Positions 37,961 to 41,524 of a DNA stretch of 64,000 nt are shown here, in pieces. The first letter of the stretch is position 1, and each line of letters begins with the position of its first letter. The DNA comes from Streptomyces sp. 549 (lineage in GTDB: Bacteria; Actinomycetota; Actinomycetes; Streptomycetales; Streptomycetaceae). The notes beneath the pieces were generated by a model. It ran no database searches and was not told the DNA's origin. It saw nothing but the letters and a program-made list of their open reading frames with translations. The translations under genes were made by a program, and so were the position numbers. The stretch lies in the NCBI RefSeq assembly GCF_030124175.1, contig NZ_JASKMT010000002.1, positions 124,001-188,000 of the forward strand. The letters run 5' to 3'.

Positions 37961-38248
37961 TCAGACGGCGATGGCGACCTCTGCCAGCCCGCCCTGCTGG
38001 GCGACCACGGTGCGGTCCGCGGTGCCGCCGGGCACCAGCGCACGCACGGTCCAGGTGCCCTCGGCCGCGTAGAACCGGAACTGGCCGGTCGCGGACGTCG
38101 GGACCTCGGCGGTGAACTCGCCGGTCGAGTCCAGCAGCCGGACGTAGCCGGTCACCGGCTCGCCGTCACGGGTGACGCTGCCCTGGATGGTGGTCTCGCC
38201 GGGCTTGATGGTGGAGGCGTCCGGGCCGCCGGCCTTCGCTCCGCACAT
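37961..38248 (-). CDS. DUF1416-family protein
   Basis: 95 aa from ATG 38248 with GGGGAG upstream. Starts MCGAKAGGPDASTIKPGE and continues as an all-beta domain (TTIQGSVTRDGEPVTGYVRL, GEFTAEVPTSATGQFRFYAA, GTWTVRALVPGG), like a small carboxypeptidase-regulatory/Ig-like fold. In actinobacteria this gene sits directly downstream of the thiosulfate sulfurtransferase, as here, which suggests a shared sulfur-related role. Mechanism unknown. Confidence 0.9.
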   Translation of the reverse strand: MCGAKAGGPDASTIKPGETTIQGSVTRDGEPVTGYVRLLDSTGEFTAEVPTSATGQFRFYAAEGTWTVRALVPGGTADRTVVAQQGGLAEVAIAV

Positions 38249-38304
38249 GGGTGCTCCCCTGTCTGTCCTCAGGACGGTTTCCGGTGGGTACCGGTTCGTG
38301 GAGG

Positions 38305-38330
38305 GTCCGCGGGCCGAGCGGCCCGCGGAC
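38305..38330 (-). terminator. Hairpin after the sulfurtransferase gene
   Basis: GTCCGCGGGCC, loop GAGC, GGCCCGCGGAC: 11 perfect pairs immediately after the stop of the upstream gene. May reduce read-through into the DUF1416 gene. Confidence 0.75.
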
Positions 38331-38336
38331 GGGTGG

Positions 38337-39173
38337 TCAGTTGGAGCCGAGCTCGATCGGCACGCCGACCAGCGAGCCGTACTCGGTCCAGGAGCCGTCG
38401 TAGTTCTTGACGTTCTCCTGGCCCAGCAGCTCGTGCAGCACGAACCAGCTGTGAGCGGAGCGCTCACCGATGCGGCAGTAGGCGATGGTGTCCTTCGCGA
38501 GGTCCACGCCCTCCTGCTCGTACAGCTCCTTCAGCTCGTCGTCGGACTTGAAGGTGCCGTCGTCGTTGGCCGACTTCGACCAGGGGATGTTGCGCGCGGT
38601 CGGCACGTGGCCGGGACGCTGCGACTGCTCCTGCGGCAGGTGCGCGGGGGCGAGCAGCTTGCCGCTGAACTCGTCGGGGGAGCGCACGTCGACGAGGTTC
38701 TGCTCGCCGATGGCCTTGACCACGTCGTCCCGGAAGGCGCGGATGGCGAGGTTCTGCGGCTTCGCCTGGTAGGTGGTCTCGGCCCGCTCGGGCACCTCGG
38801 CCACCAGGTCGCGGGAGTCCAGCTCCCACTTCTTGCGCCCGCCGTCGAGGAGCTTGACGTCCTCGTGGCCGTAGAGCTTGAAGTACCAGTACGCGTAGGA
38901 GGCGAACCAGTTGTTGTTGCCGCCGTAGAGCACGACGGTGTCGTCGTTGGAGATGCCCTTCGCGGACAGCAGCTTCTCGAACCCGGCCTGGTCGACGAAG
39001 TCGCGGCGCACCGGGTCCTGGAGGTCCTTCTGCCAGTCGATCCGGATGGCGCTCTTGATGTGGTTCTTCTCGTAGGCCGAGGTGTCCTCGTCCACCTCGA
39101 CGATGACCACCTTCGGGTCGTCGATACGGGCCTGGACCCAGTCGGCGTCCACCAGGACGTCACTGCGGCTCAT
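38337..39173 (-). CDS. Thiosulfate/3-mercaptopyruvate sulfurtransferase (rhodanese)
   Basis: 278 aa, ATG with AAGGAG upstream. Two rhodanese domains: the inactive N-terminal one (VLVDADWVQARIDDPKVVIV, DTVVLYGGNNNWFASYAYWY) and the catalytic C-terminal one with NLVDVRSPDEFSG and the active-site loop AYCRIGERSAHSWF (Cys accepts the sulfane sulfur). Matches the actinobacterial CysA/SseA-type enzymes. Expression is probably linked to the short leader peptide encoded 180 bases upstream. Confidence 0.95.
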   Translation of the reverse strand: MSRSDVLVDADWVQARIDDPKVVIVEVDEDTSAYEKNHIKSAIRIDWQKDLQDPVRRDFVDQAGFEKLLSAKGISNDDTVVLYGGNNNWFASYAYWYFKLYGHEDVKLLDGGRKKWELDSRDLVAEVPERAETTYQAKPQNLAIRAFRDDVVKAIGEQNLVDVRSPDEFSGKLLAPAHLPQEQSQRPGHVPTARNIPWSKSANDDGTFKSDDELKELYEQEGVDLAKDTIAYCRIGERSAHSWFVLHELLGQENVKNYDGSWTEYGSLVGVPIELGSN

Positions 39174-39352
39174 GGATTCTCCTTCGGAGCTGATGCGGAT
39201 GGGTGCGCGCGCACAGAGCAGGAGGGCACGCGCTGCGCTCGTGTGTGCGCGGCGGCGGGCTGTCGAGGGATGGTCCGGACCGGCCGGCGACGGCCGGTCG
39301 GCACGCATCGGCGCCTTGAGGGCCGGGTCCCCCGTCGACGGCTGCGATGCCG

Positions 39353-39436
39353 TCAGACGACGGTGCGACAGAGCATGGCGGCGACGCGGCACAGGTCCAC
39401 TGCCCGTCGCTTCGTGAGATCCGCCTGTCGCTTCAT
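39353..39436 (-). CDS. 27-residue leader peptide upstream of the sulfurtransferase
   Basis: MKRQADLTKRRAVDLCRVAA with a second Cys in MLCRTVV. The ATG is seven bases after TACGAT and a GTGACA -35 lies 17 bases further, so a leaderless leader-peptide mRNA is predicted. Streptomycetes encode similar small peptides (RRxVDLxRVAxxLC pattern) before sulfur and cysteine genes, annotated as putative leader peptides. The two Cys codons could report cysteinyl-tRNA supply and attenuate the downstream gene across the 180-base spacer; this is inference. Confidence 0.8.
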   Translation of the reverse strand: MKRQADLTKRRAVDLCRVAAMLCRTVV

Positions 39437-39443
39437 GGGGTCG

Positions 39444-39472
39444 ATCGTAAGGACGGGCGCGCCGCATGTCAC
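39444..39472 (-). promoter_or_regulatory. Promoter of the leader peptide / sulfurtransferase unit
   Basis: On the minus strand: GTGACA (39467-39472), 17-base spacer, TACGAT (39444-39449), then 7 bases to the ATG. One of the best-matched vegetative-type promoters in the window. Confidence 0.8.
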
Positions 39473-39616
39473 CGGCGGTCCACATGGTGATACGAGATCG
39501 TCTGCGATGTGGGATGGGAAGTGATTGGGCCCCGCCCCCGGGCGCCCCCGGACCGGCGCCGGTGCGCGGAGGTGGACCACGCACCGGCGCCCACGGACGC
39601 GCCGGTCTCAGATGCC

Positions 39617-39664
39617 GGACGCGGCAGGGGTGATGGACGCGGCAGGGGTGATGGACGCGGCAGT
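39617..39664. repeat. 18-bp tandem repeat, about 2.7 copies
   Basis: GGACGCGGCAGGGGTGAT at 39617-39634 and 39635-39652, then a partial copy. Lies downstream of the LmeA-like gene (minus strand). Purely spacer as far as can be seen. Confidence 0.9.
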
Positions 39665-39702
39665 GCTGGTGGGGACCGGCGTCCGCCCCGGATCGTCGCG
39701 CC

Positions 39703-40410
39703 TCAGCCGGTCACGTTGACGTCGGAGCCGGAGAAGTGCACGGTGACGCCGCGCTGGTTGGCCTCGATCTTCTCCAGCCGCACCCCGTCCGGCAGTCCGT
39801 CGATGGTGCGTGTGTAGTCGATGCGCTGCCGGATCAGGTCCTCGATGCCGGGGATGTCCGAGCCGGGGATGGCGTCGGCCCGCAGCCGGACCGTGTCGCC
39901 GTTCTCCACGCTCACGGTGCTGGTGGTGGAGCGCTCCAGCGGCTTGTCCAGCACCGGCACGTTCACGCTGCCGGTGACCTTCACCTTCGCCTCCCCGGCC
40001 TGCGCGGGGCCGCCGTACTCCACCCGCACGCCCTCCTGGGCCGCCGCCGTCAGGTCCTCGTAGGTCAGCAGGGCGCTGCCGTCCGCCCGGTCGGCGACGC
40101 CGCCGGAGTAGTCGTCCGACAGCCGGATGTCCCGGGCCTCGACGTCGAACTCGCTGACGCGCAGGGAGCCTTCGGCGATGTCCTGGGTCACGCCGCTCAA
40201 CCGTATGTCCACCGACTCCAGTTCCTTGGCGAGCACCTGCGTGAGGAACGGGAAACCGTTGACGGAGACGTCCACCGAGTTGGCGTCCCGCGCGCTTCTG
40301 ACCTCGTCGGTGATCCGGTCCTCGACCAGCTTGACCGCCAACCGGTCCGCGCCGACGAACAGGCCGCCGAGCACGAACACGATGATCAGTGTGATCCGCA
40401 ACGCACGCAT
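39703..40410 (-). CDS. LmeA-like (DUF2993) phospholipid-binding protein
   Basis: 235 aa. N-terminal membrane anchor/signal (LRITLIIVFVLGGLFVGADR) followed by the DUF2993 pattern: VEDRITDEVRSARDANSVDV, VNGFPFLTQVLAKELESVDI, LSGVTQDIAEGSLRVSEFDV and the C-terminal GVTVHFSGSDVNVTG. The mycobacterial relative LmeA is a periplasmic phosphatidylinositol-binding protein involved in lipomannan maturation. In Streptomyces the precise role is unknown. Confidence 0.85.
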   Translation of the reverse strand: MRALRITLIIVFVLGGLFVGADRLAVKLVEDRITDEVRSARDANSVDVSVNGFPFLTQVLAKELESVDIRLSGVTQDIAEGSLRVSEFDVEARDIRLSDDYSGGVADRADGSALLTYEDLTAAAQEGVRVEYGGPAQAGEAKVKVTGSVNVPVLDKPLERSTTSTVSVENGDTVRLRADAIPGSDIPGIEDLIRQRIDYTRTIDGLPDGVRLEKIEANQRGVTVHFSGSDVNVTG

Positions 40411-40474
40411 GATGTCCGGTGCTCCCTCAGTCGAATGGGCGTTCCTGCCCGGTGGTGCACTCCAGCATGCCCGG

Positions 40475-41524
40475 TCAGGCCACGACGCGGCCCAGCAGAT
40501 ACACCGCGGGGGCGGCCAGCGACAGCGGCAGTGCGACCCCGGCCGTCATGTGCACGAAGCGGGACGGCCAGTCGTAGCTCGCCACCCGCAGGCCGACCAG
40601 CGCGCACACCCCGGCGCCCGCGCCCAGCACCGCGCCGCCCGTGCCCAGTTCACCCCAACTGCCCGCGGCGATACCGGCACCGGCCGCCGCCAGCAGCGCG
40701 ACCGGCACCGACACGACCGCCGGCAGCGGCAGCGCCCTGGCGACCACCGCCGCCGCCACCGCGGCGGCCCCGGCCGTCACCACGCCCGGGTCGACGCCCT
40801 CGGCGGCGAGCAGCCCGGCGGCCAGCACCGTCAGCACGGTGGAGCCGGTGCCCGCGGTCAGCGCGTACAGCCGCTCGTCGGGTGTGCTGCGGTTGCGCAG
40901 GTGCAGGACGAAGAGGAGCACCACCCACACGCCCAGCGACCCGACGATCGCCACGGCGGCGTTCTGCCGGCCCGCGGCGAGCAGCGCAACGTCCGCGGTG
41001 AGGCCGGCGGCGAACGCCAGGGCGATGCCCTGCCTGGCGGGCCACATGCCGTTCAGCCGGTACCAGCCGGCGGCGGTCAGTGCCTGGAGCAGCACCACGG
41101 CCACCGCGAGGGCCGGGCGGCCCGCCTGGGCGGAGACGGCGAGCAGGGCCGCCAGCACCGCGGTGAGTGCGGCGGGCCGCAGCCCGGGCTCGATGATCGG
41201 GCTGCCGGTGCGCACGCCAGGCCCCGCCGGAGCGGCGGGACGGGACGGCCCGTCGGCTGGGCCTGCCGGGGACGGGACCGTGTGCGTGGCGGAGGCGGAC
41301 GGGGCCGACGGCTGCGCCGGGGACGGCTTGCGGCGTCGCCCGGTGCCGGCGCCCGGCTCGGCGGGCGTCGCCCGGTGGCCCTGGTGCGGCAGCCGGGCAC
41401 CCTCGCCGCCGTCGGCCACCTGCCACGGCTGCGGCTGCCGGTGGCCGTAAGGATCGCCCGCGGGGTTGCCCGCCGGGTCGCCGGGAAGGGGGTACGGGTC
41501 GTGTCCGCCGGGGGGCGTGCTCAT
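40475..41524 (-). CDS. Polytopic membrane protein with Pro-rich cytoplasmic head
   Basis: 349 aa. Residues 1-110 are Pro/Gly/Ala-rich and disordered (HDPYPLPGDPAGNPAGDPYG). From about 112 onward there are about nine closely spaced hydrophobic helices (LRPAALTAVLAALLAVSAQA, VAIVGSLGVWVVLLFVLHLR, YLLGRVVA end). ATGA overlap with the MoaD-like gene upstream indicates co-translation. No transport motif recognised. Confidence 0.75.
   Translation of the reverse strand: MSTPPGGHDPYPLPGDPAGNPAGDPYGHRQPQPWQVADGGEGARLPHQGHRATPAEPGAGTGRRRKPSPAQPSAPSASATHTVPSPAGPADGPSRPAAPAGPGVRTGSPIIEPGLRPAALTAVLAALLAVSAQAGRPALAVAVVLLQALTAAGWYRLNGMWPARQGIALAFAAGLTADVALLAAGRQNAAVAIVGSLGVWVVLLFVLHLRNRSTPDERLYALTAGTGSTVLTVLAAGLLAAEGVDPGVVTAGAAAVAAAVVARALPLPAVVSVPVALLAAAGAGIAAGSWGELGTGGAVLGAGAGVCALVGLRVASYDWPSRFVHMTAGVALPLSLAAPAVYLLGRVVA

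Follow-up and report, generated by a model that had tools for sequence, protein, structure and literature searches.

Introduction

Canestrari and co-workers are reported to have shown, in 2020, cysteine-responsive leaders in Mycobacterium smegmatis. A response of such mycobacterial leaders to cysteine is described in PMC9031893, PMC13236596 and PMC9094748. Cys leaders had been predicted in Mycobacterium, Propionibacterium acnes and Bifidobacterium longum (Seliverstov 2005; PMC1262725). Like the upstream open reading frame (uORF) described here, the leaders of PMC1262725 contain Cys, lie 5′ of cys operons and have no conserved terminator; they differ in having Cys runs near the stop codon, and passages of the Cys section of that paper name no Streptomyces case. 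The mycobacterial cysteine attenuators of the Ms5788A family (NF042933) share with our locus a uORF with a predicted leaderless start, the LTKRRAVDLCRVA core and a sulfurtransferase operon, but they carry a Cys run, whereas our uORF has two separate Cys codons. In the uORFC-8-2 motif of cysS in Rhodobacterales, the Cys codons of a uORF have likewise been proposed to sense Cys-tRNA (PMC8632094); however, as described there, that motif has tandem Cys codons (mostly UGC, in part UGU) as well as a run of U that would fit an intrinsic terminator, features that are not found at our locus. A classical terminator attenuator has an intrinsic terminator between uORF and gene; in contrast, a consensus scan of positions 39000–39800 found none here. 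From the leaders of NF042934 (NCBIfam cis_reg_atten, putative leader peptide) our uORF does not differ in kind, although that model describes amino acids, not a codon.

For Streptomyces, the leader peptides given in the S. lividans reannotation number eight, none of them for cysteine (PMC8079986). Oxidative stress in S. coelicolor brings a joint rise of cysA, cysM and sulfate genes, which PMC4991794, citing a study of NdgR, gives as not NdgR-dependent.

In this work we analyze a uORF in 64,000 nucleotides of DNA from Streptomyces sp. 549 (the window). Sequence comparison places the uORF, as a genuine and conserved member, in a known family of cysteine-sensing leaders. What is new is a near-invariant UGU at its second Cys, for which codon counting offers no explanation.

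Organization of the locus

An earlier note on this DNA had described a leaderless, Cys-bearing leader peptide of 27 codons behind a near-consensus promoter, about 180 bases from a sulfurtransferase gene. The uORF, the promoter and the gene are all found on the minus strand (Table 1), and the interval that the note had assigned to the leader, 39353–39472, spans both promoter and uORF. The two Cys codons are seven codons apart, and the uORF occupies a sulfur-gene position, that is, 5′ of a rhodanese-type sulfurtransferase followed by a DUF1416 protein. The promoter (a 17-nt spacing between the boxes) matches the consensus at 9 of 12 positions and is the sole match in 39000–39800, where 50 shuffles gave a mean of 0.0. 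Because its −10 box ends so close to the ATG, the predicted transcription start is the ATG of the uORF, and the mRNA is therefore probably leaderless; this spacing is conserved in related leaders (see below). The gene for an LmeA-like phospholipid-binding protein (PF11209; 39703–40410, same strand) lies upstream of the uORF promoter. A search of 38300–40500 against Rfam gave five matches up to E 10, every one far under its gathering score.

Table 1. Features of the uORF–sulfurtransferase locus (window coordinates).
Feature	Position	Strand	Basis or remark
uORF, 27 codons + stop TGA: MKRQADLTKRRAVDLCRVAAMLCRTVV	39353..39436	−	translation and family profiles
First Cys codon, TGC (codon 16)	39389..39391	−	not kept across the wider family
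Second Cys codon, TGT (codon 23), proposed sensor codon	39368..39370	−	UGU in 268/269 leaders
Ala codon GCA (codon 12), rare codon in these genomes	39401..39403	−	
Predicted −35 box, GTGACA	39467..39472	−	promoter scan
Predicted −10 box, TACGAT, end 7 nt 5′ of the uORF ATG	39444..39449	−	promoter scan
Spacer from uORF to sulfurtransferase (start codon at 39173), 179 nt	39174..39352	−	
Shine-Dalgarno of sulfurtransferase, AAGGAG	39179..39184	−	sequence
Possible small hairpin CUCC-GAA-GGAG, enclosing the Shine-Dalgarno of the sulfurtransferase	39179–39189	−	sequence
Sulfurtransferase, 278 aa, two rhodanese stretches, cysA / SCO4164 type by comparison	38337..39173	−	
DUF1416 protein, probably the operon's second gene	37961..38248	−	operon inferred from strand and spacing

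Conservation of the leader and its promoter

The uORF scores 29.6 bits with NF042934 (28.3 bits in a six-frame search), over the curated cut-off of 27, and the match ends at the second Cys. With NF042933 (NCBIfam leader_Ms5788A) it scores 43.8 bits (E 1.5e-11), 1.2 bits under the curated cut-off of 45, which is passed in 21/199 Streptomyces genomes. With the NF042933 profile at E ≤ 1e-5, matches occur in 196/199 Streptomyces genomes and in 169/296 genomes of the class (0/14 control genomes). The earlier note had assigned the RRAVDLCRVAA pattern to a leader class of streptomycete sulfur genes; a known leader family before a sulfur gene is supported here. A looser search (E ≤ 10) matched 61/61 relatives, but it is not relied on because 8/14 controls also matched. 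The genome of the window contains three NF042934 matches over the cut-off, including the uORF, and a fourth, at an SDF symporter, under it. Among the best 80 of 587 named relatives of the sulfurtransferase, 74 are named Streptomyces, and the leader is present at 80/80 of these loci; the closest relative among the matches listed is from S. alkaliterrae (93% identity). The 80 loci were kept out of the leader counts that follow, and some of their species overlap with the genome set already counted.

From 203 stretches we collected 171 distinct leaders, 102 of them from Streptomyces; the other 32 loci are two exact duplicates (L019, L087) and 30 leaders missed by the motif and later read by profile position. 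NF042934 matches that reach the last position of the profile (the second Cys) supplied sets of 31 and 40 more, chosen for a Cys at that position, not for its codon; matches that stop short of it, or that were listed without a sequence read, were left out. The combined set has 269 leaders (171 + 28 + 40 + 30, the 28 being the 31 minus three repeats of the 171). Many of the leaders are kin, with 96 distinct cores among the 171.

A TANNNT box ends 6–9 nt before the chosen start in 163/171 leaders, a favourable figure because the presence of a −10 box weighed in the choice of start codon, and exactly 7 nt before it in 135; a TANNNT box anywhere at 5–9 nt occurs in 3% of shuffled upstream sequence. 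In 96/102 Streptomyces leaders the GTGACA hexamer is one base further from the −10 box than in the window; in 5/102, the window included, the distance is 17 nt. The sulfurtransferase follows the leader by 109–235 nt in the 102 Streptomyces members. In several other families (L002, L004, L008, L026, L103–L110) the gap is about 600 nt (565–650 nt), with room for another gene, as compared with 179 nt in the window.

The second cysteine codon

The two Cys codons were given equal weight in the earlier note. Both are present and both are conserved within Streptomyces, but across the family only the second is kept, as UGU. At the first Cys site, 168 of the 171 leaders have TGC or TGT, but in the remaining sets the figures are 12/31, 8/40 and 21/30, and Val, Gly, Leu, Gln, Arg, Ala, Pro or Lys may take its place. 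In related leaders 5′ of genes other than the sulfurtransferase gene, Val, Gly, Arg, Gln or Leu is frequent at this site. The second Cys is UGU in 268/269 leaders after removal of repeats (by set, 171/171, 31/31, 39/40 and 30/30), in 96/96 when the 171 are collapsed to distinct cores, and in 80/80 of the loci of the best 80 of the 587 named sulfurtransferase relatives. Of 19 leaders that contain Cys runs or near-runs, 19/19 have TGT as the +7 codon, most of the remaining Cys positions in the run being variable. The lone TGC at the sensor site (L281) is in a leader under the cut-off that has a tandem duplication, RCMSAIC-RCMSAPC, the second copy of which ends with TGT.

The UGU was not picked by the search, because the profiles read amino acids only. 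The normal Cys codon is UGC: UGU accounts for 0/90 Cys codons of the downstream genes and for 12/150 in the 53 predicted genes of the window, the latter counted in ORFs filtered for third-position G+C, a bias toward TGC. The genome has 64 tRNA matches; in the 63 that lie in stretches read by ARAGORN there is one tRNA-Cys, with anticodon GCA, and the remaining match (85 nt) is unlike tRNA-Cys. With a single tRNA-Cys found, one tRNA seems to serve both UGU and UGC; decoding of UGU by tRNA-Cys(GCA), through wobble, is generally slower.

RNA structure was considered as the cause of the UGU and is unconvincing: in silico replacement of UGU by UGC in the 102 Streptomyces sequences cut the mean gain in Shine-Dalgarno exposure (see below) from 0.110 to 0.093, the gain being higher with UGU in 40 and lower in 24. 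Searches of an open-licence library, which lacks most subscription papers, turned up no mention of the UGU invariance.

Selection on the peptide and a rare alanine codon

In the 102 Streptomyces leaders the codons for RRAVDLC have no first- or second-base change, and the third base of the Val codon is free (GTA 49, GTC 28, GTG 21, GTT 4), a pattern of selection on the peptide. A like peptide pattern is retained in related leaders that lie 5′ of different genes.

At the Ala codon at position 12, GCA is nearly fixed at the nucleotide level: it occurs in 98/102 Streptomyces leaders vs 18/2336 Ala codons of the downstream genes. Pairing of the leader GGGCAGU with ACUGCCC 5′ of the Shine-Dalgarno is a suggestive but not sufficient cause. 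CTGCCC is found in 89/98 GCA leaders and 0/4 GCG leaders, and CCGCCC in 1/98 and 2/4, respectively; however, the two GCG cases share one stretch and are probably one event, nine GCA leaders (the window included) have no CTGCCC partner, and GCA also occurs in 30/69 leaders outside the genus. By eye, none of the non-genus leaders inspected has a CTGCCC-type partner 5′ of the Shine-Dalgarno. The two GCG cases (L090, L092) combine GCA to GCG in the leader with CUGCCC to CCGCCC, a possible compensatory change from A-U to G-C.

Folding with a masked ribosome

We folded each Streptomyces member from the start of the uORF into the gene while a 31-nt ribosome mask was walked along the uORF. At the codons common to all 102, exposure of the Shine-Dalgarno peaks when the mask stands at +4 to +7, and the largest mean gain, 0.114, is at the second Cys. 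In the 13–15 leaders whose N-termini are longer, some mask positions well before the first Cys gave mean gains up to 0.138 (medians ≤ 0.033), so the peak at the second Cys is not unique in these leaders.

As a recoding control, we used every second one of the 101 non-window Streptomyces sequences (51) plus the window. With the mask on the second Cys, the mean Shine-Dalgarno gain was +0.139 for native leaders vs +0.038 for synonymously recoded ones, the native gain being larger in 40/51 (p 1.8e-5); with the mask on the first Cys, the gain was +0.005, no larger than in recoded leaders. On the average of these 51 members of the genus, then, a ribosome paused at the second Cys, not at the first, is predicted to free the Shine-Dalgarno of the sulfurtransferase.

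The window itself departs from this average. Its Shine-Dalgarno exposure changes by −0.02 with the mask on the second Cys, that is, with no gain, and the fold of its region does not improve on that of shuffles (z 0.16). Two leader-complementary stretches are missing from it: CTGCCC, 5′ of the Shine-Dalgarno in 89/102 Streptomyces members, and AGC, before the start codon in 61/102. Because of the missing gain, the shuffle-like fold and these two missing stretches, the masking model rests on the kin of the window, not on this sequence.

Two other structures were considered. Sequestration of the AUG by the leader (CAUGCUC/GAGCAUG) is present on average as pairing (0.18–0.28 per pair), but it is ruled against by the masks: with the second Cys masked, AUG exposure does not differ between native and recoded leaders (+0.214 vs +0.217), and with the first Cys masked it is smaller in the native ones (0.052 vs 0.112). 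A hairpin right after the stop codon, with a stem of ≥6 Watson-Crick pairs, is found in 36/102 members vs 9% of shuffles and is weak and variable.

Genes downstream of related leaders

Ten proteins encoded 3′ of related leaders were compared with Pfam. Five are plainly sulfur-related (nitrite/sulfite reductase, a ThiS family member, sulfatase, PAPS reductase and cysteine dioxygenase) and for three more, namely two luciferase-like monooxygenases and an SDF symporter, a sulfur link is plausible. Of the other two, one is SCO4226-like and not obviously a sulfur gene, and one has no Pfam family. The ThiS-family gene is followed by a gene for a CysM-like synthase, as judged from sequence. It is a leader of the family (L221) that precedes the SCO4226-like protein, a nickel-responsive type without an evident sulfur connection.

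The leader 5′ of the cysteine dioxygenase gene (L232) belongs to the same family (VHMDLVRYAGCVC or near, with TGT at the sensor site); the same arrangement is assigned to L217 by sequence similarity and to L222–L224, L233 and L242 by leader sequence alone. A leader before a cysteine-degrading enzyme is a poor fit to a simple starvation switch, for which the opposite would be expected.

Discussion

Kinship supports a cysteine-responsive leader function for the uORF, and regulation by the supply of Cys-tRNA is the best reading by kinship. We consider it likely that the leaderless uORF senses cysteinyl-tRNA and controls the sulfurtransferase–DUF1416 operon in cis. Comparison provides the family membership, the spacing between promoter and start, the peptide and the UGU. 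Transcription would start at the ATG of the uORF, and a ribosome translating the leader would arrive at the UGU codon. When Cys-tRNA is short, the ribosome may pause there; this pause, the cysteine response and the direction of the effect we infer. By analogy with the mycobacterial case, the paused ribosome would cover leader RNA that otherwise pairs with the ribosome-binding region of the sulfurtransferase, and the freed region would allow more translation of the operon, an outcome to which folding speaks as an average of the genus, not for the window.

That the uORF is a chance ORF, or its conservation spurious and without function, is highly improbable: a match in 196/199 genomes, a coding-type third-base pattern, the near-invariant UGU and the promoter spacing all contradict it. 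The alternatives that retain a working leader concern what makes the ribosome pause and what the pause does. The nascent chain itself might contribute as an arrest peptide, the VDLxR-type stretch sensitizing the ribosome at UGU from within the exit tunnel, so that one codon suffices; tunnel geometry is part of what is generally known of arrest peptides. The constant distance from this stretch to the UGU, the RRAVDLC codons with no change at the first or second base and a free third base of Val, and the like pattern ahead of different genes point this way, but some members of the family have DF, DH, DN, DY or GL in place of D-L, and mycobacterial leaders use Cys runs, as codon counting predicts; we regard this reading as possible but doubtful. 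Somewhat less probable still, and in our judgment unlikely, is that the same sensor acts through Rho-dependent termination in the C-rich spacer, the paused ribosome altering the loading of Rho. Averaged over the 102 Streptomyces members, the spacer is rich in C and poor in G (C 0.46, G 0.28), the more so near its 3′ end (C 0.52, G 0.24); the values for the window are 0.44 and 0.31. These are uncontrolled values, however, and C-richness is expected in such genomes. No intrinsic terminator was found in 39000–39800, and Rho has already been proposed for mycobacterial cys leaders (PMC1262725). RNA of the S. coelicolor cysA, cysM and sulfate genes changes 3.4 to 18.5 fold in oxidative stress (cysA 8.3), as would suit an output at the level of RNA, but the paper that reports the change ascribes it to HbpS-SenS-SenR (PMC4991794).

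Sensing of cysteinyl-tRNA at the second Cys, our preferred reading, leaves the identity of the codon to be accounted for. We tentatively suggest, as an unlikely but specific proposal, that leaders throughout the class sense cysteine via one invariant UGU, set a fixed distance beyond a conserved peptide, and that UGU is not exchangeable for UGC because slower wobble decoding and the nascent chain in the tunnel together cause the pause. If this is true, the sensor would be defined by the choice of a synonymous codon plus an arrest peptide. The near-invariant UGU offers a sharp and inexpensive way to ask if the sensitivity of a ribosomal sensor can depend on a synonymous codon alone. For the organisms, the leader ties the streptomycete sulfurtransferase operon to the mycobacterial cysteine leaders, as well as to further sulfur operons in the same or related genomes, and the leader family is a candidate for the shared control of sulfur genes whose response to oxidative stress is reported not to depend on NdgR (PMC4991794).
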